Assembly: GCA_031271345.1 (NCBI GenBank)
Contig: JAISVX010000005.1
Location: 21,450-85,449 of the forward strand
Source: Lactobacillaceae bacterium
Lineage (GTDB): Bacteria > Pseudomonadota > Alphaproteobacteria > RF32 > CAG-239
Direction of reading: 5' to 3'
Length of the DNA: 64,000 nucleotides
Every line of letters starts with the position of its first letter. Position 1 is the first letter of the stretch. Positions 1 to 22,603 of the stretch are shown piece by piece. The notes below the pieces were generated by a model. That model made no database searches. It saw only the letters and a list, made by a program, of their open reading frames with translations, and was not told where the DNA came from. A program made the translations under genes and the position numbers.

Positions 1-1
1 A

Positions 2-124
2 ATGGTGCGCGGAAGCGTTCGCGCCGAAGGTTCGTCTGGATGTATCTCCGTATGGGATAAGCAGGAAATTTTTAAACTTGATTCGTTGCTGCCCGTCGGT
101 ACCCGCGTTTTTATCAGAGAATAA
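2..124 (+). CDS. C-terminal fragment of L,D-transpeptidase (YkuD-like) protein, truncated by window edge
   Basis: Frame 2 reads MVRGSVRAEGSSGCISVWDKQEIFKLDSLLPVGTRVFIRE*; SSGC resembles the YkuD catalytic Cys motif. Confidence 0.5.
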   Translation: MVRGSVRAEGSSGCISVWDKQEIFKLDSLLPVGTRVFIRE

Positions 125-201
125 TAAAAAATCCCTCACAAGGAGGGATTTTTTAATGGTGCCGGCTGAGAGACTCGAACTCCCGACCCACTGATTACAA
201 A
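125..201 (-). repeat. Direct repeat: 3' part of tRNA-Thr plus downstream terminator (att-like, distal copy)
   Basis: 77 bp identical to 4670-4746; identity stops in the anticodon loop (TTTGTA). Confidence 0.85.
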
Positions 202-327
202 GCACACGCTTTACCAAATTTTTATCTTTATAAAACAAAGAGTTGGCTCATAGATACTTTAGGCTTTTCTAATCGGTATACCACCGAGCTACTACGCCCT
301 AAATGTGTGCTTAAAAACAACAGAACT

Positions 328-1830
328 CTAGGCATTGTTTATAATTTTAGTATGTAGCTGAGTCTTTTGTTGAGTCGATATAACACCCTTTGAATATAAA
401 AATTCTAGATGCTCATCTGTCAATACATTATATTCATCAATCATATTTTCAAATGTTTTGTATTGTATTGCTCCGCGATTCATCAATTCTCTATACATTT
501 CTTGTATAGCTTTTTCTGAACCACGATGGAGTTGTGTATGTGGCGTAGGTCCTAGAACCAATAAATTATCTAATATATCAGGTCCATTTTTGCTAAATTC
601 AATTATATGGTGAGCTTCGACATAATTACGTCCATCAGGTCTTTCAAAAGTATTGGTTCCAGCCTGACATTTGTAATCCTCCCTAATCCTTGCAAGCTCT
701 GCGATAAATTGATTCCTTGCTCTTTTATCGCCTTTCATTGTAGGTTTAGAAATTACTAACTTATTTATTTTCTTAATTAAATCCTGATTAGCAACTAGAG
801 TTTTTAAAGTATCTAAATTGGCTCGAATGAGAACATCTTTCATGGTAGTATCAGAAACACTACCACCATCTAAATCCAAATCATTAATAATCTTATTTAG
901 ATCTAAAATAGATGCAGGCAAATCACCTAGTAAATTTTTAGCATGATCAGTTAAGGAATAAGTTTCATCTGCTCTATTGATAGAAATTAAGCCAAAAGCT
1001 TCTAAAAATATAAGATATGTTTGAAATTTAAACCATGGTTCTTGAGATGTTCTGTAGGTAAATAATGACTTATCATTATTTACCCATCCCATCTCTTTGA
1101 AAAACTGTTGCTGTTGTCCATTCCTATTTGTGGATGTAAGCCATCGACCAATATCTAAGGCTCGTTGCAAAATAAGATTTTCAAATTGCATACTATCGAT
1201 GCGACCAAGCAATATAGAAAGTTCAAAATCAGTAACCGAACGGTTAATCTCTTTCATATATTTTAGAATAGCTAATGTAGGATGATAATTAGCATCGGCG
1301 CGTATTGTTTCTATACCAGTTAGGTTTTTTATTAAATCATTATTTTTTATATTTATATCTAGGCTGATATTTTCCAGAAAAGTTGAAATTTGTTCTTGTT
1401 CAAGGACTACGAATGCCATACATCTGTCAAAATCAATAACTTTCTTTTGCCTGGATATTGATTTTATCATGCCCCAAAAAGCACAAGCTCCCATAAGATG
1501 TCTAAACATACGACCAGCTTCGTCGTAATGGACATCAAGATTTCTATATTTTAGATATTCATTCTCAAAATTTATATCTCTAAATTTTATATGTTCAATA
1601 TTTTTAAGGCAAGCTTCAGAAATAAGTCCCATTATCTCTTTATAGTTATTACCATTGGAAGCAACATCATTTTTTATTAACAATAGGTAAGAAGCCAAGA
1701 CTTGTAATTTATGCAAATAGTTTCTAGAGAAAGTATCTCTAGGCATATTGATTACTTGATTATGAAAAGTAGTAAAGCCAGTTATTGTATCAACATAAGA
1801 CTTATAATAGCTTCTAACGGAACCCGGCAT
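328..1830 (-). CDS. HNH endonuclease, putative restriction enzyme
   Basis: C-terminal HNH-like motif EAHHIIEFSKNGPDILDNLLVLGPTPHTQLHRG; operon with two DNA methyltransferases. Confidence 0.75.
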   Translation of the reverse strand: MPGSVRSYYKSYVDTITGFTTFHNQVINMPRDTFSRNYLHKLQVLASYLLLIKNDVASNGNNYKEIMGLISEACLKNIEHIKFRDINFENEYLKYRNLDVHYDEAGRMFRHLMGACAFWGMIKSISRQKKVIDFDRCMAFVVLEQEQISTFLENISLDINIKNNDLIKNLTGIETIRADANYHPTLAILKYMKEINRSVTDFELSILLGRIDSMQFENLILQRALDIGRWLTSTNRNGQQQQFFKEMGWVNNDKSLFTYRTSQEPWFKFQTYLIFLEAFGLISINRADETYSLTDHAKNLLGDLPASILDLNKIINDLDLDGGSVSDTTMKDVLIRANLDTLKTLVANQDLIKKINKLVISKPTMKGDKRARNQFIAELARIREDYKCQAGTNTFERPDGRNYVEAHHIIEFSKNGPDILDNLLVLGPTPHTQLHRGSEKAIQEMYRELMNRGAIQYKTFENMIDEYNVLTDEHLEFLYSKGVISTQQKTQLHTKIINNA

Positions 1831-1832
1831 AA

Positions 1833-2675
1833 TTATACTCCTGCTTTTCTGAAATTTATAATATTCTGATGCATATGGTTTATTTTAAAAGAATAGGGAT
1901 AGCCAAAAGGATATAGAGGCTTGTTATCTTGCAATAGGGCTATTGTGCCAACAAATTCGAATCCTATTTCAGTCATAAGTTTTACAATATCTGCCTGCAC
2001 ACAAATTTCTTTTTTATCAACTGTGAAATCGCTTATTATTATTGAACAATATTTATCATTTCTCAGACGATTAAAGCAATGTTTCATAACTTTTTTAAGA
2101 AGTTTTAGAAAATCTTCATAAGTATCTTGATTGCCTAAATCATTTTTATTATCAGAGTAGTATTCAACACCAATCCTTGAGCCACTTCTAAAGCCTTTGG
2201 CAGAGGAGTCTTTTCTTAAGCCCTTGGCATTGTTTTTTAAAATATTGTGATATGGGGGAGAAGTTATTACAAAATCCACCGATTCTATATTGCGTAGTTT
2301 TTCTGTAGAATCGCCAACGATATATTTATAATCTTTATTTTCTTGCATACCTTTTTTTGCGAATCGCTCAGTAGCAAGTTTTTTATATTCGTTACTTAAA
2401 TCAATTCCAATAGATAAGCGTTTTAGATTATAAGCGGCAATAGAGGTTGTGCCGGAGCCCATAAACGGGTCTAAAATAACCATACCTTCCTTTGTAAACA
2501 AGGAAATCATTTTTTCAACATCTTTAATTAAAAATGGAGCGGGATGCTTAAATGCATCTTTGTCATCAGCACACTTCTCGGAAAACAAGAAGCTTTTTGT
2601 TAGTTTTAGCCATTCTGTTCCGGTTAAATTGTTTAGTTTATTTCTTGAATCATATTTTCCCTTTGATTCGGTCAT
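1833..2675 (-). CDS. DNA methyltransferase (N4/N6 amino-MTase type)
   Basis: DPFMGSGTTSIAA SAM motif and VDFVITSPPYHN catalytic motif. Confidence 0.85.
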   Translation of the reverse strand: MTESKGKYDSRNKLNNLTGTEWLKLTKSFLFSEKCADDKDAFKHPAPFLIKDVEKMISLFTKEGMVILDPFMGSGTTSIAAYNLKRLSIGIDLSNEYKKLATERFAKKGMQENKDYKYIVGDSTEKLRNIESVDFVITSPPYHNILKNNAKGLRKDSSAKGFRSGSRIGVEYYSDNKNDLGNQDTYEDFLKLLKKVMKHCFNRLRNDKYCSIIISDFTVDKKEICVQADIVKLMTEIGFEFVGTIALLQDNKPLYPFGYPYSFKINHMHQNIINFRKAGV

Positions 2676-4177
2676 TACACAGCCCCTTCCATCTGTACAT
2701 CCGACCTTCCTAATGACAGATAGAAATCTGTTATTCCCAAGCCTAATTTATCACAAATATTGGCTTCGCTTGACCTTTTATTTTTTTGGTGCAATTTTTC
2801 TTTCAAAACCATTTTTGATTTATTGATTGCCGCCTCAAGGGCTAACCAATCATTATCATCATTGCTGTTGAATGTTAAGATCATTGTTCCATCGGGATAT
2901 AACAATAGCTGACAATTACTCAATACGCTCGTCATATCCGATATATATTGGCTGTAGTCTTTGTTTTTATTAACAATGATTTCTTTATTCAAAGATGTCT
3001 TATATTTATCGGAATATCTCTCAAGCCATACATTCCAAACTTGTGATAATTCCCCATATTGGATTATGGATCCATACGGTGGATCTGTTAAAACTAGTTG
3101 CGGTTTAAATCCAGAAGTTATTTCTTTGCTATCTTGCAGCAGGACAATTCCGTCAACTTTATCAATATCTTTTAAATCGGTAGAATATGTGTATTTGGGC
3201 AGATATGTATTACGAGACTTCAAACATTTAATAACACCAGAGTTTCCAAATATTGCTCTTTCAAACTGTATAGCAGGGTTTTGTTCCATAAAAGATTTCA
3301 GCCCTAAGTACGCAGGCCGCCCCCAACTTGTTGACAGAGGCCTGTTTGTTTTCTCACTTCTCAAAGCACACATTTTTGTTGTTAAGTGCAAAATTTGCAT
3401 AAAGGCAAACATTAACGCATCTTTTTCTACTACATTGAGATTATTTATTTCATCAAATATAAATGATAAAATTTCCAAATTGCGAGCAGTCCATAAATTA
3501 GCTATATTCTTTCCGCCAACTGTTTTTATAAACGATGGGGATATTGAAGACAAAACCTTCATATCGTAATTTGGTTTCCATAAATTGAAACTTTCAAAAC
3601 TGATATTTCCTTCATACTTGTCCGTGGTAGTCCTACCACAATGCTCACATTTATATGAGAGCGCAAAAGGAGTCGTGCCTTCGACTCTATAATTATAAAT
3701 ATCCGTTTCTTTCGCACATCTGGAGCAAACCGTTCTGAAGTTTTGTTTGTATAGTGGGCTATCTTTGAGTTTATCGACAATATATTTAGCTAGATTAGCA
3801 ACTTTATTTAAGTTGAATTGTTTTGAATATGTATCAACCAAAAATAGAGTTATCGGATTTATATCGGCTACAACAGGTTTCCTGCCGGTTTTTATGGATT
3901 CAAAAAATGTTAAGGCGCTACCCGCGAATGGATCATATACCGTATCATTGATATTTGTATTGCGGACAATTATCTCCCGCCAAATATTATGTGGCTTTTT
4001 TCCCCAATATTTTAACCCTCTGTATAAAGTAGGCCTAGTTGCCTCTTCCATATCATGTGGCAGAATAGAGTTTATACGGGTCAGCCTAGATTCCGTCTTT
4101 GTTTTCTTAATTTTATCTATAAAAACATTCGCTTTTTGCGACATTTCTGCCCCGACTCTTTGTGTAAATTTCTTCAT
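2675..4177 (-). CDS. DNA methyltransferase with internal zinc-ribbon
   Basis: DPFAGSALTFFES and VLTDPPYGSIIQYGELSQVW motifs; CSRC...CEHC cysteine pairs; overlaps the next gene by 1 nt. Confidence 0.8.
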   Translation of the reverse strand: MKKFTQRVGAEMSQKANVFIDKIKKTKTESRLTRINSILPHDMEEATRPTLYRGLKYWGKKPHNIWREIIVRNTNINDTVYDPFAGSALTFFESIKTGRKPVVADINPITLFLVDTYSKQFNLNKVANLAKYIVDKLKDSPLYKQNFRTVCSRCAKETDIYNYRVEGTTPFALSYKCEHCGRTTTDKYEGNISFESFNLWKPNYDMKVLSSISPSFIKTVGGKNIANLWTARNLEILSFIFDEINNLNVVEKDALMFAFMQILHLTTKMCALRSEKTNRPLSTSWGRPAYLGLKSFMEQNPAIQFERAIFGNSGVIKCLKSRNTYLPKYTYSTDLKDIDKVDGIVLLQDSKEITSGFKPQLVLTDPPYGSIIQYGELSQVWNVWLERYSDKYKTSLNKEIIVNKNKDYSQYISDMTSVLSNCQLLLYPDGTMILTFNSNDDNDWLALEAAINKSKMVLKEKLHQKNKRSSEANICDKLGLGITDFYLSLGRSDVQMEGAV

Positions 4178-4497
4178 AAACTTCTCTACAAATTTTTATA
4201 CATTATTAAAAAAGAAATATCTACAAGATTAATTAGCCTGTATACATTTCCCATTTAGTTCTATTTTTGTTCTAGCATAAGTTTACTTAATAGTATATTA
4301 AAAAATATAATCAACATTATATTTTCTTAGTTTATTTGTGTAAATCAATAAGTTAGATAAGCGGCGCTGTTTTTTAATCGCCAACCCATTGATTATATTG
4401 TGTTTTTTGCCAACTTTGGTATCTCGAAGTGGTATTTTTTGGTATTTTCAGGTCAAAATTTGTTGATTTTGATAAATTTTACAAAACTTAAAAATGC

Positions 4498-4525
4498 AAA
4501 AACCCTTGATTTACAAGGGCTTTGG
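4498..4525 (-). terminator. Stem-loop terminator downstream of tRNA-like remnant (minus strand)
   Basis: AAGCCCTTGTAAATCAAGGGTTTTT on minus strand. Confidence 0.55.
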
Positions 4526-4669
4526 AATGGTGCCGATTGAGAGACTGCGCCGTTACGAAAGCTAAAGCTTTCTACTTGCGCGAACAACTAAGTTGTGCTT
4601 CGGCTCCGCCTTGCAAGACTAAGAGAAGTTTCAAACTCCCTCGGAAGTTCGTACCTCAGCATGGACCAT

Positions 4670-4746
4670 TAAAAAATCCCTCACAAGGAGGGATTTTTTA
4701 ATGGTGCCGGCTGAGAGACTCGAACTCCCGACCCACTGATTACAAA
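4670..4746 (-). repeat. Direct repeat: 3' part of intact tRNA-Thr plus terminator (att-like, proximal copy)
   Basis: 77 bp identical to 125-201. Confidence 0.85.
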
Positions 4747-4777
4747 TCAGTAGCTCTACCAACTGAGCTAAGCCGGC
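4702..4777 (-). tRNA. tRNA-Thr (TGT)
   Basis: GCCGGCTTAGCTCAGTTGGTAGAGCTACTGATTTGTAATCAGTGGGTCGGGAGTTCGAGTCTCTCAGCCGGCACCA: complete cloverleaf, encoded CCA, anticodon TGT in loop TTTGTAA. Confidence 0.97.
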
Positions 4778-4910
4778 GGCAACGTGGTTTTTATATATAA
4801 AACTTCTTTCCTTGTCAATACAAAAAGTTATCATTTCTATAAAATATTTTACATTTGACCAAGCCGGCTCTTTGTAATACCATTTTACATATTTTCTATG
4901 GAGAAAGAAA

Positions 4911-5693
4911 TTGAGAAAATACGGCGTAAAACTTTGGTCATCAAACATAATAAAAAGCCCTGATTTGGTCAAAGATATTGCCAAAGCAGTCAACGGCGGA
5001 GTTTTTGACTTTGTCGAGCTTTTTGCCGTGCCTGACACTTTTGATGAGACCGCCAAAAATCTTTTTAACCTGCTTCATAAAGCAAAAGTAAACATTCACG
5101 CTTCGCACAGCGGTTTTGGTTTTGACACGGGAAACAAAGAAAAATTAAACCAAAACTTAAAACAATTTAATGAAGCCCAAAGATTTGCCGACTTGTTTAA
5201 CTCTCCGATAATCGTTACGCATACCGGCATGGGAAACTTGCCGGAAAATATTGAGGAAACCATAAGGCAGTTCAAGACGTTCAATGATAAAAGAATTGCC
5301 GTTGAGAACCTCCCTTCATACTGCTCGGACACCTATCTTCCCCTTCATGGAATTACTCCCGAAGAAATAAAATATATCAAAAATGAAGCCGGCTGCATGT
5401 TTTGTTTTGATTTTTCTCACGCAATATGTGCCGCCCACGCTCTTAAAATGGATAAGTTTGAAGCATTAAAAGGATACGCGGATATAAACCCAAGCGTTTA
5501 TCATATCAGCGACGGAGATTTTAACAGTGATTTTGACGCGCACGACCATTTTGGAGAAGGAAATTATCCCATAAAAGAAATCGTTGAAAAATATTCTGCA
5601 AACGACGCTTTACTGACAATTGAAACAGGCAGAGATATGCCTACGGGAGTTGAGCCATGGGTTAAAGATATGAATTATTTGAAAAATATTTAA
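4911..5693 (+). CDS. TIM-barrel sugar phosphate isomerase / AP endonuclease family 2-like protein
   Basis: Pattern VNIHASHSGFGFD...VTHTGMGN...AVENLPS...DFSHA...TIETG; TTG start. Confidence 0.6.
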   Translation: MRKYGVKLWSSNIIKSPDLVKDIAKAVNGGVFDFVELFAVPDTFDETAKNLFNLLHKAKVNIHASHSGFGFDTGNKEKLNQNLKQFNEAQRFADLFNSPIIVTHTGMGNLPENIEETIRQFKTFNDKRIAVENLPSYCSDTYLPLHGITPEEIKYIKNEAGCMFCFDFSHAICAAHALKMDKFEALKGYADINPSVYHISDGDFNSDFDAHDHFGEGNYPIKEIVEKYSANDALLTIETGRDMPTGVEPWVKDMNYLKNI

Positions 5694-5806
5694 AATCAGT
5701 GTTGCGAATAAAAGATAAAAATGCTATTGACTTACCAATAATTTTTATTTTTTGCACATTATTGAGTTAGTTAAAATAAAGTTTAATCTTTTAAAACCCT
5801 AAAGTT

Positions 5807-6460
5807 ATGTTTAGTAAAAAAATTGCTGAAAGCCTTTTAAAAAACAAGGCCGTAACCCTGCACCCGACGGAACCAGCGCAATGGACTTCCGGGCAGCTGA
5901 CCCCGATTTACTGCAACAACAGAAAAAACACTTTCTACGTGAAAGACCGAAAACTGATTGTTATGCAGTTAGCCTCCCGCATAAGAGAACAGTATCCCGA
6001 AACGGAAGTTATTGCCGGAGTAGCGAATGCAGGAACACCGTGGGGCGCAATGGTTGCCTATGAAATGGAGCTGCCTTACATCAGCGCCCGCGGAGAAGAA
6101 AAGAAACACGGAGCCAAAGGCAAAATCGAAGGCGAAGTGTGTCCTGGAAAAAAGGTCTTTGTTGTCGAAGACCTAATCTCTACCGGAGGTTCCAGCATAA
6201 AAGCTATCGACGCGCTGGAACAGTCTGGGTTTGAGGTTATCGGCTTGGGAGCCATTTTCACTTATGAGTTCCCGAAGGCGACCGAAATCCTGAATGAGAC
6301 AATCGGCTCAGCACATTTCGCCCTGTCCTCCTACGGTACCCTGATTGACGTGGCGCTGGAAACGGAATACATCAATCACGACCAGTACCGAATGCTTCTG
6401 GACTGGAAAACCGACCCCAACAAGTGGAGTTCTGACCGAGGCGGTCCCGAGATGTTGTAG
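5807..6460 (+). CDS. pyrE: Orotate phosphoribosyltransferase
   Basis: VFVVEDLISTGGSS PRPP-binding motif; overall OPRTase pattern. Confidence 0.9.
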   Translation: MFSKKIAESLLKNKAVTLHPTEPAQWTSGQLTPIYCNNRKNTFYVKDRKLIVMQLASRIREQYPETEVIAGVANAGTPWGAMVAYEMELPYISARGEEKKHGAKGKIEGEVCPGKKVFVVEDLISTGGSSIKAIDALEQSGFEVIGLGAIFTYEFPKATEILNETIGSAHFALSSYGTLIDVALETEYINHDQYRMLLDWKTDPNKWSSDRGGPEML

Positions 6461-6483
6461 AAAGATTTAATCTTTAAACGCGG

Positions 6484-6525
6484 ACGAGTGCAAACCAATT
6501 GGTTTGCACTCGTTGTTTTTTAACC
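6484..6525 (+). terminator. Perfect palindrome with T-tract between convergent pyrE and pyrF
   Basis: GAGTGCAAACCAATTGGTTTGCACTC followed by GTTGTTTTTT. Confidence 0.7.
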
Positions 6526-6535
6526 GTATTATCGG

Positions 6536-7354
6536 TTAAATCTCCGCGTCTTCAAGGAGCAGATTCATCTCCTCCTGAAGCGCTTTCGCTTCCATTGCCG
6601 CCCTTGTGGCAAAGTCTTCGCATTTCGAGGCATATATTATGCCGCGGGAAGAGTTTACCAGAAGACCGCACTGCGAATTCATCCCGTATTTCGCCACTTC
6701 CCGCAAACTTCCTCCCTGCGCGCCGACACCGGGGACGAGCAAGAAATGGTTCGGAACGATACGGCGAATTCCTTCGAGCATTTGCGCTTTTGTGGCTCCG
6801 ACAACATACATCATGTTGTCTTCGTTTCCCCACTCCTTCGACGTTTGGAGGACTTTCTCGTAAAAAGCGCAGCCAACCGCATCGGTTTGCATTTGAAAAT
6901 CATCGGAACCTTCGTTTGAGGTAAGCGCCAGCAAAACGGCGAACTTGTCTTCAAACTTAAGGAACGGAGCGACGCTGTCTTTGCCCATATAAGGCGCGAC
7001 CGTCACTGCGTCTGCCGGCAGATTTTCAAAAAACGTTTTGGCATACATTTCGCTGGTGTTTCCAATGTCTCCGCGCTTTGCATCGGCAATAACGAAGATT
7101 TCGGGGTAGTTTTCCTTGATGTACCCGATTGTACGTTTTAAAACATCCCAGCCGTACGTCCCCATGCTTTCGTAGAAAGCCACATTAGGCTTGAAGCAAA
7201 CCGCATACGGAGCGGTCGCGTCGATGATTGCCTGGTTGAAACCGAGCATGTCGCCGTCAAGACATTCGGGGATTTTTTTCACATCCGTGTCAAGACCAAC
7301 ACAAAGGAATGATCTCTTTGCAATGATTTGTTCAAATAACGCTTGTTTGTTCAT
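6536..7354 (-). CDS. pyrF: Orotidine 5'-phosphate decarboxylase, subfamily 2
   Basis: [39 protein letters not shown] motifs. Confidence 0.93.
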
Positions 7355-7455
7355 CTTAAATGATTTTTTAGTTAGACAATATAAATATTAAAAATAGCTG
7401 ATTGCCATCAACTATATATAAAACATACTAAAAATCAACAGATAAAACTTTTGCC

Positions 7456-9192
7456 TCAATAGCTTGCTTCAATTATTCTGCTTTTGCGCAGTTCATCAAT
7501 ATCGTAGTTCGCTTTGACATTAAGCTGCGGAGCGATGGCGCTGATGATGTTCGATGCCGTAGGCACGGTATTCCAGCCCGAGGTTACAAAATCCCAGGTT
7601 TCTTTAGAGCCTTTTGGCTCGTCAAGCATAACATATAAAGCATATTTCGGATTTGACGCGGGGAAAGTGGCAACAAAGGTTGTCATAACTTTTTTGTTTA
7701 TATACTTGCCGTTAACCAGCTTATTTGCGGTTCCTGTTTTTCCAGCCACCTCATAACCAAGAACATTTGCTCTTTTGCCGGATCCCTCAACGACAACTTC
7801 ACGAAGAAGTTTCCTCATGGTTTTTGAGGTTTTTTCCGAGACAACCCTTTTGCTTCCGCTTTTTTCCGCGCCCTTCACAAGTTTGGGAGGGTTATATATA
7901 CCGCCGTTAACCATCGCCGAAAACGATGTTATCACATGCAGCGGAGTGACGGATATTCCATATCCGTAAGAAACCGTGGCAATTGTGGACTCTCTCCACA
8001 CTTTTGGCACAATCGGATTAGCTTTTTCCGCAATTTCAATATTTAACGGAGACAAAAGCCCGACCTTATCAAGAAATTTTCTTTGTTCGTCTTTTCCCAA
8101 TTTCAAAGCTATCTGAGCCGACCCGATGTTTGAAGAATATATCAAAATTTCTGGAACAGACAGCCACCTGTTCTCTCCTCTGTAATCGCTAATTGTATTG
8201 TAGCTGATTTTAAGAGGTTTGGTCGCGTCGAATTTATCCGTAACTTTTATTTTGCCGCTGTCTAAGCCCAAGGAAGTATTGAACACCTTAAACACGGAAC
8301 CTGGCTCGTAAACGCCTTGAGTGGCAAAGTTAAACATCGCCTTATCATTCGGCAGAGTTCCCGCATTTGGGTCAAAATCAGGCAGAGACACCATAGCGAC
8401 AATCTCAGATGTGTTAACATCCATCAAAACAGCCACGCCGCCTTCCGCATCATATTTTTTAATGCCCGCCATCAATTCTTCCCGAATCGTATATTGAACC
8501 GCAGCATCAATAGTCAGATGCAAAGGAATATCCGATTGGGTCAGCCTGTCGTCAAGCTCTCTTTCAACTCCCGACAAACCTATATTATCAATATTTGTCT
8601 TTCCGATAATGTGGGAAAATAAGGATTCATGAGGATAAACTCTTTTTTCTCCATTTTCAAAATCAAGCCCCGGTATTCCCAAATCATTAATCTGCTTTTG
8701 CTGCGAGGGAGTTAAATTTCTTTTTATATAAACGAACGTCGCTTTGCGCCGGAGCTTCTCAAGCAGCTCCTTTTCATTAAACTCGGTTAGAACTTCGCTC
8801 AGTCTATACGCGGATTCTTCCGGCGAAATAACTTTTTTAGGATTCACAAATAAATTTACCGTAGGAAGAGATGTTGCGATTATGGCGCCGTTTCTATCGA
8901 CAATATCCGCTCTTTTAATTGGACGATGAGCAAAAAAACCATTTTTCTCAATAATTTCTCCAGAAGCATTTTTATTTATGTTTGGAACCACGCATATATC
9001 GAAAAGCCTTATAGTTATTACAAAAAATGCCAAAATAAAAAGAGACATGGCAAAAAAGATTCTATTTTTGCACATATAAACATGGTCTTTTTCAAAACCA
9101 TAATTAAAACTGCTGTTTTTATTTACTTTTATTTCCTGTCCCAGAGAATAAAAACTTCTTCTTTTTTTTCTGGGTAATATATTTCCAAACAT
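7456..9192 (-). CDS. ftsI: Peptidoglycan transpeptidase FtsI/PBP3
   Basis: SVFK, SSN and KTGTAN penicillin-binding motifs; location after ftsL. Confidence 0.9.
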   Translation of the reverse strand: MFGNILPRKKRRSFYSLGQEIKVNKNSSFNYGFEKDHVYMCKNRIFFAMSLFILAFFVITIRLFDICVVPNINKNASGEIIEKNGFFAHRPIKRADIVDRNGAIIATSLPTVNLFVNPKKVISPEESAYRLSEVLTEFNEKELLEKLRRKATFVYIKRNLTPSQQKQINDLGIPGLDFENGEKRVYPHESLFSHIIGKTNIDNIGLSGVERELDDRLTQSDIPLHLTIDAAVQYTIREELMAGIKKYDAEGGVAVLMDVNTSEIVAMVSLPDFDPNAGTLPNDKAMFNFATQGVYEPGSVFKVFNTSLGLDSGKIKVTDKFDATKPLKISYNTISDYRGENRWLSVPEILIYSSNIGSAQIALKLGKDEQRKFLDKVGLLSPLNIEIAEKANPIVPKVWRESTIATVSYGYGISVTPLHVITSFSAMVNGGIYNPPKLVKGAEKSGSKRVVSEKTSKTMRKLLREVVVEGSGKRANVLGYEVAGKTGTANKLVNGKYINKKVMTTFVATFPASNPKYALYVMLDEPKGSKETWDFVTSGWNTVPTASNIISAIAPQLNVKANYDIDELRKSRIIEASY

Positions 9193-20664: not shown

Positions 20665-20747
20665 AGTCCTCCTGTTTGGATTATACCGAACATTATCGCC
20701 ACTATAATTAGCATTTAGGGAAAATATTATATGATGATGGATTGAAA

Positions 20748-21047
20748 GTCAAACAATCCCTAAAAATGGCGGGTCGCCCCGCCAATCACTCGTTCTTTCC
20801 GATTATTCGCGCCGTCAAACAATCCCTAAAAATGGCGGGTCGCCCCGCCTGGTGAGTTTATTAGTGCTTATTATAGCTAGTCAAACAATCCCTAAAAATG
20901 GCGGGTCGCCCCGCCTATAGCTCAAAGTATGTCACGAGGTTTACAGTCAAACAATCCCTAAAAATGGCGGGTCGCCCCGCCTATAAAATCAACAAAAGCC
21001 GCCTTGTCAAAGTCAAACAATCCCTAAAAATGGCGGGTCGCCCCGCC
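20748..21047. CRISPR. CRISPR array: 5 identical 36-bp repeats, 4 spacers of 30 bp
   Basis: Repeat GTCAAACAATCCCTAAAAATGGCGGGTCGCCCCGCC at 20748, 20814, 20880, 20946 and 21012; four different spacers, each exactly 30 bp. Confidence 0.97.
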
Positions 21048-21057
21048 CAATTCAGAG

Positions 21058-21139: not shown

Positions 21140-22603
21140 TCATTTTTTTCTCAAATTCAAGTTCTTGTTCGTTTTTTTTGAACTTCTCTGGTTGACCTTT
21201 TTAGCTGCTTCAAATTCTTTCTTAAGAACCTGCCGCAAGAAATTGAGCCATTTCCATTTACCAACTTTAACATCATCTTCCCTATTATTCAAATTCTCCC
21301 GTAATTTTTCCACCTTTGCCTTTACCGCAGTTTTGATGTCTTTTTTTGTTGTCCTAATTCCGCCTTCCGGCATTGGAACACCAACCCGCACAATTTTTTT
21401 GTTTTCAGCGTAATCTTCTCGCCTTTGCTTATCGATTACCAGATACATCCAATCTTTGCTATTAATCTGCGCCTTCAATGCTTTAAGAAAATGATTTTTT
21501 ATTTCATTTGGATTCCTTAAAATATGCTCCCTATAAAACGTATCGAAAAAATCCAAAATAATTTTTATATTATTACAAAAATCTGTGGCATAGGAAGTAT
21601 TTTCTTTAGAAAACAATCTGGAATGAGAAATATTGTTGCTTAATGAATGGCTTGGTGAGTTTTTTATTTTCTTTATTATGGGCTTATTCTCTTCTTTTTT
21701 CTTTTCTAATGTGTCTAATATTCCATTTTCATAAACAACAAAATAACGCCAAAAAACAGCATTTATTTCCAAAATAAACTCGAATATCCTTACTCTTTCA
21801 TCAAAAGAAATTTTATCTATTTTCTTTTTATCGGGTTCCAAATAAATTTTTTTGATAATTCCCTTGCATTTTGCCAGATTATACTTACCGATAAACTGAT
21901 ATTCCCGAATAAAACTTAGCAATGCATAACTTTCAATACATTTTTGCTTGTATTTGATATTCTGATATTCTTTTTTCGTATTCTCATCAATTTTTAATGC
22001 AATATTTTCAATATGCTTTCGCTTTATATCTTCTGCATTTTTACGGATTTTTTCCAGACGTTCATGAAATTTCTTATATAGGCAGTCTGATTTGACTTTT
22101 TGATTAATCTCATTCGAAAACCTGCCTGGCAAAAACACAAATAAAGACTGTAACGATTTTTCAAAATTGAATTTTTTGACAATAATTTTCTTATCATTGT
22201 TTAATGTGACTTTGCCATATTTAAGAAGTCCATGCTCAAGAAGTTGCCTCAACAAGTAGACATGCCCTATCATCTCCATGAACTTGTCTTTGCGATTTCC
22301 GTTATCAATTAACAATTCTTTATACACATATTCCGCAAAATCCTGTGAGAAATAGACCGTGTCATAATATTTTAGAAAATTTGTTGTTCCAAAAATATCC
22401 AAATTATCTGGATACTCCGCATTTTCCAAATCTTCTTCGGAATCTATCCAATCTTCAACTTTTGGATATTTTTTATAAACTTCATCTTTCCTGTCGTTGT
22501 TTTTTGCTATAAATTCAAAGAAATGATAAAGCAACATTCTATCCAAACGAGATATAATCGTTATAATATAAGAACGAGTCTTTTGGGAAACAATCTTCGT
22601 CAT
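21140..22603 (-). CDS. Uncharacterised 487-aa protein; candidate miniature HEPN (Cas13-like) CRISPR effector
   Basis: Only CRISPR-adjacent unknown ORF; basic C terminus; RQLLEH (aa 119-124) and RMLLYH (aa 22-27) match Rx4H; no HNH or RuvC-type motif recognised by eye. Confidence 0.5.
   Translation of the reverse strand: MTKIVSQKTRSYIITIISRLDRMLLYHFFEFIAKNNDRKDEVYKKYPKVEDWIDSEEDLENAEYPDNLDIFGTTNFLKYYDTVYFSQDFAEYVYKELLIDNGNRKDKFMEMIGHVYLLRQLLEHGLLKYGKVTLNNDKKIIVKKFNFEKSLQSLFVFLPGRFSNEINQKVKSDCLYKKFHERLEKIRKNAEDIKRKHIENIALKIDENTKKEYQNIKYKQKCIESYALLSFIREYQFIGKYNLAKCKGIIKKIYLEPDKKKIDKISFDERVRIFEFILEINAVFWRYFVVYENGILDTLEKKKEENKPIIKKIKNSPSHSLSNNISHSRLFSKENTSYATDFCNNIKIILDFFDTFYREHILRNPNEIKNHFLKALKAQINSKDWMYLVIDKQRREDYAENKKIVRVGVPMPEGGIRTTKKDIKTAVKAKVEKLRENLNNREDDVKVGKWKWLNFLRQVLKKEFEAAKKVNQRSSKKTNKNLNLRKK

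Follow-up and report, generated by a model that had tools for sequence, protein, structure and literature searches.

A candidate CIME-like element without an integrase gene, carrying a predicted restriction-modification operon, at a tRNA-Thr(UGU) gene

Comparison with related genomes indicates that the locus near the left end of the window (the whole 64-kb stretch of DNA analysed) is a CIME-like element situated at a defence hotspot. Most probably an element of about 4.3 kb (202-4546), devoid of an integrase gene and loaded with a three-gene restriction-modification cargo, entered tRNA-Thr(UGU) by recombination in the anticodon loop, with a tyrosine integrase of a prophage family acting in trans. 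From the distal to the tRNA end, the locus comprises the following features:

125-156, minus strand: terminator copy at the distal end, identical to 4670-4701, following the stop codon of an L,D-transpeptidase gene
157-201, minus strand: 3' half of the host tRNA-Thr (positions 32-76), now displaced; forms the distal attachment site (attR) and is identical to 4702-4746
202-302, minus strand: the element's distal att arm; arm-type sites lie at 284-295 and 273-284
328-1830, minus strand: HNH nuclease of 500 aa, putative restriction endonuclease (HNH profile; HH...N...H)
1833-2675, minus strand: predicted DNA methyltransferase M2 of 280 aa, DPFMGSGTT followed by TSPPY (N6_N4_Mtase, 3.9e-27)
2675-4177, minus strand: predicted DNA methyltransferase M1 of 500 aa, DPFAGSA followed by TDPPYG (N6_N4_Mtase, 3.6e-16)
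4410-4527, minus strand: tRNA-proximal att arm, with the element terminator at 4498-4527 and arm-type sites at 4416-4427 and 4429-4440 (plus strand)
4528-4546, minus strand: displaced element-type last 19 nt of tRNA-Thr (AGTCTCTCAATCGGCACCA), the same letters as at the tRNA end of genome G091
4547-4669, minus strand: spacer of a T-loop-bounded repeat unit, in which the tRNA 3' half recurs as a decayed, inverted copy
4670-4701, minus strand: host-type terminator behind the intact tRNA-Thr
4702-4777, minus strand: intact tRNA-Thr(UGU), the target gene (Rfam tRNA, 71.1 bits)

An earlier note on this DNA had described the 3' part of tRNA-Thr with its terminator as perfectly duplicated around a three-gene operon of two DNA methyltransferases and an HNH nuclease, and both observations were borne out, the second by the open reading frames and by N6_N4_Mtase and HNH matches. 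Positions 125-201 and 4670-4746 agree in every one of their 77 nt, which comprise positions 32-76 of tRNA-Thr(UGU), from the anticodon loop to CCA, and a 32-nt terminator; in the left copy the 45-nt tRNA part occupies 157-201 and the terminator part 125-156. The right copy begins where the anticodon loop does on its 5' side, at tRNA position 32 (window 4746), within the only tRNA gene of the window, an intact tRNA-Thr(TGT) of 76 nt (4777-4702, minus strand). A 31-nt core motif has two matches in the 64 kb at up to three mismatches, against 0.00 expected from shuffles, and all matches of ctRNA, asX2 and miRNA models to the repeat in the Rfam search lay below gathering scores and reflect the terminator hairpin. 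As in tRNA-integrated islands, an intact tRNA gene is accompanied by a displaced fragment in the same orientation, with the boundary in the anticodon loop at tRNA position 32; the prophage of G091 has the same boundary, in keeping with a crossover in that loop, and in the tRNA-Thr copies of relatives it falls at positions 29-32, matching that of 157-201. The G+C content of 202-4546 is 0.325, lower than in each of the 275 equal-size windows to the right (0.395 ± 0.019, minimum 0.349). On the other side, the first base of the left repeat directly follows the stop codon of the L,D-transpeptidase gene, which ends at window position 124. This gene (YkuD; L007 9480-10124, window 1-124 plus upstream sequence) has its best family homologues at about 35-40% identity and no close homologue in 152 family genomes, so that the left flank itself may also have been acquired.

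Since an island inserted by a tyrosine integrase should bear integrase arm-binding sites on the element side of each end, such arms were sought. In related genera, a conserved arm of about 120 bp lies beside those tRNA-Thr 3' halves whose first base falls at the same place in the anticodon loop, and it holds repeated sites (GTGGTAGCTCGG), the two nearest to the core overlapping at 11-bp spacing. The distal arm of the window (202-302) aligns with the arm of G008 at 74% identity over 112 nt (E 8.6e-9), and the proximal end (4410-4546) aligns with attL of the G091 prophage at 83% over 71 nt, tRNA end included (E 1.8e-12); the proximal arm is matched in G074, G131 and G158 as well. With the tRNA part left out, the distal arm scored 71 (shuffles 21.5 ± 3.8) and the proximal arm 73 (26.8 ± 4.0), and in neither test did any of 1000 shuffles reach the observed score. 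A site matrix built from the relatives only, and scored at all window positions on both strands, ranked 284-295 first, 4416-4427 ninth, 273-284 87th and 4429-4440 112th, the sites 284-295 and 4416-4427 being oriented as in relatives, in the same convergent arrangement. The match of both non-tRNA ends to prophage att arms is the strongest evidence for the claim that this is an island of a tRNA-targeting integrase. The homology also led us to abandon a reading of 202-299 as a decayed tRNA in its own right. The window arms are 74-83% identical to those of relatives, versus 85-100% for other cassettes, and may no longer be functional.

The arms also bear on the possibility of a chimeric assembly join at the tRNA repeat. 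Assemblers can be misled by a repeat of 77 bp, and the host assembly consists of five contigs, those of most relatives being more fragmented; nevertheless, two different, matching and correctly oriented arms lie within one contig and the same arrangement recurs in several independent assemblies, which makes such an artefact extremely improbable.

Neither the open reading frames nor the Pfam search revealed an integrase gene inside the island, as had been claimed; attL and attR are kept, and integration and transfer genes are absent. Related complete elements with the same site and arms, integrase included, occur in relatives. In G091, a 50-kb prophage lies between tRNA-Thr and a displaced tRNA half, and in G074, the assembly of which is fragmented, the same integrase, att arm and phage genes are found behind tRNA-Thr. 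This integrase (391 aa, with Arm-DNA-bind_3, SAM-like and Phage_integrase domains) adjoins the tRNA gene, and beyond it come genes for an excisionase-like protein, for replication and for a terminase. The tRNA half contributed by the element can be recognised in G074 and G158, where the displaced half and the one that is part of the tRNA today are not the same. Intact cognate integrases at ≥86% identity are confined to G091, G008 and G074 among the 152 family genomes, while G131 holds broken copies and G157 an integrase stub at a contig end; no viral contig was found to carry the tRNA-Thr integrase or the exact arm motif. The broken copies in G131, as evidence that decay occurs in this family, and the prophage-type att ends of the island both speak for an origin as a decayed prophage, namely a tRNA-Thr prophage of which only the restriction-modification system remains after loss of the integrase and all other genes, an account that is plausible but the less likely one in view of the cargo and the cassettes described below.

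A matching integrase, which the earlier note had advised seeking elsewhere in the genome, did not emerge: the host recombinases are two of Xer size and one 625-aa integrase beside tRNA-Trp, none of them close to the tRNA-Thr integrase. The 625-aa protein, the only one not of Xer size, was rejected as a helper; it adjoins tRNA-Trp, and the best match to the tRNA-Thr integrase in the host genome was an Xer-sized gene on contig C4 (E 2.2e-5). With no helper in the host genome, the element is probably fixed at present. That the island is decayed or mobilised in trans stands as an either/or, drawn from the relatives; its mobility itself we infer. The 625-aa integrase lies directly behind tRNA-Trp (L010 763-2852, G000:C3) and is followed by a RecQ-like helicase and a resolvase-like gene; this tRNA-Trp element is a second, integrase-bearing island of the host genome.

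The tRNA-side end is more complex than a simple direct repeat. At 4498-4546 there is another, incomplete tRNA-Thr 3' end, the third of the locus, which has a different terminator and is homologous to the prophage end; this sequence, CAATCGGCACCA with its own terminator, is the 3' end ascribed to the element. An acceptor stem with the element-type end would have one C-A mismatch and one G-U pair, and the present stem, with the host-type end, is perfectly paired. Between the tRNA and the element end lies a T-loop-bounded repeat unit of 155 bp (4547-4701, plus the tRNA end), which carries the host-type end and terminator; inverted arms occur in this region at 4655-4682/4688-4715. Units of this kind are also present behind tRNA-Thr in G162 (twice, in tandem and identical), G160, G076, G077, G168 and G175, and similar ones at other tRNAs of the host genome. 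The 77-bp block thus could not be upheld as an att site outright, its terminator half being host-specific and the element having its own tRNA end and terminator. The terminator half requires a second event and is probably not an att footprint, a local duplication or conversion being the probable source. Extended to the whole repeat, formation in situ by duplication or gene conversion of the tRNA end, with no integrase involved, would account for the species-specific terminator inside the repeat, for the terminator details shared by both repeat copies within each of G161, G163 and G027, and for the tandem tRNA-end duplications with terminator that are common in these genomes. It leaves unexplained the att arms and arm-type sites on both sides and the sharp anticodon-loop boundary common to prophages; we therefore consider it unlikely and accept duplication or conversion in situ for the terminator part only.

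Tandem units of about 155-260 bp, each ending in the last ~19 nt of the tRNA and a terminator, with a decayed inverted tRNA half, were observed behind tRNA genes at window 4528-4701, at L248 1500-1955 (tRNA-Ser TGA, G000:C2:468 kb) and at L244 1509-1600 (near tRNA-Thr GGT), as well as in relatives (L077, L072, L073, L074, L087 and L088). Their layout resembles that of the 178-bp tyrT repeats (rtT RNA) of E. coli, tandem units behind a tRNA gene that each end in the last 19 nt of the tRNA; the sequences are unrelated, and no Rfam RtT match was obtained at E up to 1 in window 1-9000. The 5' ends of tRNAs are duplicated too: copies of tRNA-Thr positions 1-40 lie about 150-250 bp upstream of the intact tRNA (L145 5586-5547, L142 1526-1489, L233 11164-11127, L237 3269-3230 and L241 2437-2476), and the host tRNA-Ser has a shorter 5'-end copy (L248, about 1936-1953). 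In G028 and G137 (L076 9673-10131 and L137 4776-5200), a displaced tRNA-Thr half lies about 300 bp from the full tRNA-Thr in opposite orientation, with a phage-like gene beyond this inverted attachment structure.

The three cargo genes are intact, all on the minus strand, abutting or overlapping. M2 is 71-74% identical to four homologues and M1 32-53% identical to four homologues with the catalytic motifs kept, while the HNH nuclease shares 36-43% identity with its homologues, in five of which HH...N...H is invariant. The HNH profile match (402-436, E 0.0018) is below the Pfam cut-off, and in the PDB the protein matches the McrA-type HNH 6ghc (E 4.7e-7); the AlphaFold model of the protein is of low confidence (pLDDT 58, pTM 0.44). 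The PADLOC label 'Type IV mREase' was dropped as a name, as the HNH domain alone matches. The gene order M1-M2-HNH is the same in a viral contig, a Gastranaerophilales MAG, a Clostridia MAG and a Tenericutes MAG. Methyltransferase and nuclease genes are adjacent and conserved as a unit, as in Type II systems, and the operon probably encodes a Type II restriction-modification system, for which the combination of two different methyltransferases with one nuclease suggests an asymmetric (Type IIS) recognition site. Type IIS systems with an HNH nuclease, e.g., MnlI, likewise have the nuclease gene beside methyltransferase genes; unlike in these, the present putative nuclease has no Pfam match outside the HNH domain. 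Beyond weak HNH-domain matches, no relatives of the system were found in 385 genomes of the class, and none of the HNH protein on plasmids. This two-methyltransferase/HNH system is conserved, has spread horizontally and is apparently uncharacterised. On the viral contig (L067, IMGVR_UViG_3300022661_004008), a 783-aa NTPase-type ORF with a GGVGKT motif (5106-7457) lies on the opposite strand right behind the operon and is possibly a second defence gene. Elsewhere in the window, a CRISPR-like array at 20747-21052 consists of five 36-nt repeats (GTCAAACAATCCCTAAAAATGGCGGGTCGCCCCGCC) with spacers of about 30 nt and adjoins a 487-aa ORF (21140-22603, minus strand) with no Pfam match.

The occurrence of the operon on a viral contig would suit a prophage stripped down to its restriction-modification genes; against this, no phage gene remnants are visible, the operon filling the 4.3 kb between the arms. 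The wider family bears on the same question. The att arm was found at ≥85% identity in 14 of the 152 genomes, representing eight genera, at 16 places, and the arm-bearing genomes without an intact cognate integrase have for the most part small cassettes lacking an integrase, many of them with defence genes (AbiE, AbiD, Fic, DUF3800). Cassettes of this sort, between such ends, were seen in the following genomes:

G030: AbiEi/AbiEii, between two att arms, no integrase
G161: Fic protein, integrase-less cassette
G008: DUF3800 and an ankyrin protein, integrase-less cassette
G099: NERD nuclease, integrase-less cassette
G066: peptidase S51, integrase-less cassette
G109: unknown protein, integrase-less cassette
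G021: 9.6-kb set of radical SAM, aminoacyl-tRNA synthetase and MFS genes, integrase-less cassette

In addition, AbiD proteins are encoded directly next to the arm in G007 and G125. Most of the other integrase-less cassettes have no G091-type arm on the tRNA side, and the ends are not all alike; most relatives being represented by fragmented assemblies, missing integrases or second ends may be on other contigs. In G125, G158 and G131, a distal arm, a tRNA half and a proximal arm are joined in tandem, which points to accretion of several elements, and to accretion only. At least seven integrase-less cassettes with different cargo thus share the same kind of ends with the present island, and independent prophage decays would hardly be so neat. 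Because neat cassettes with different cargo recur, a travelling cassette is somewhat favoured over a stripped prophage. The tRNA-Thr pattern was found in 128 family genomes, as a single copy in 116 and as two or more copies in 12; the outcome that the earlier note had named as evidence against an island, one organisation throughout the relatives with no empty-site variant, did not appear. The only congener, G001, is among the single-copy genomes and shares the right flank of the island, its left flank being different; a closely related strain that keeps both flanks, and so would display the precise empty site, was not found.

For the CIME-like element, the following history would fit these data. 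The tyrosine integrase of tRNA-Thr prophages, with its arm-binding, SAM-like and catalytic domains, would have acted in trans at the anticodon loop, and integration would have displaced the host's 3' half and terminator to 125-201. The 3' end supplied by the element would have introduced the C-A mismatch and the G-U pair, and the 155-bp unit with its host-type end would later have restored the acceptor stem. If a helper integrase were supplied, recombination of 4746 with 201 would excise a circle of 4,545 bp, and what remained would be a clean tRNA-Thr followed by its terminator and the L,D-transpeptidase gene. Host DNA would be shielded by the methyltransferases, and DNA lacking the modification would be cleaved by the HNH protein.

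Dependence on a recombinase encoded elsewhere is known from SCC elements without ccr, whose recombinases and sites differ from those of the present island. CALIN integron arrays and MITEs (PMC11389934) are also served by recombinases encoded elsewhere, again with other recombinases and sites. The closest parallel is the CIME, defined by retention of attL and attR and absence of integration and transfer genes (PMC5704250), as in the streptococcal ICESt1-related elements, and the ssrA islands of Dehalococcoides, which lack an integration module (PMC3146451). The present element shares with these the attL/attR flanks and the absence of integration and transfer genes, related complete elements at the same site and tandem accretion in relatives; it differs in its presumed helper, a tRNA-Thr prophage in place of an ICE or serine-recombinase island, in a cargo made up mainly of defence genes, and in ends altered by the T-loop repeat unit. 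The tDNA islands detected by Islander (PMC4383910) have the same regenerated tRNA, displaced 3' fragment and anticodon-centred crossover; this program checks island candidates for an integrase gene, and an island of the present kind would consequently escape it.

Integrase-less islands are usually dismissed as decayed, and search programs that demand an integrase overlook them. Here, the ends can be linked to one particular family of prophage integrases known from other genera, and ends of this kind enclose varied defence genes, so that movement of defence cassettes in trans becomes directly testable. We tentatively suggest, as a proposal that may well prove wrong, that tRNA-Thr(UGU) is a modular defence hotspot of the family, in which short recombinase-less cassettes, each made up only of an arm, a tRNA half and one defence system, are inserted and swapped by the prophage integrase while T-loop units restore the tRNA. 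If true, the cassettes would be moved by the viruses against which their cargo may act.
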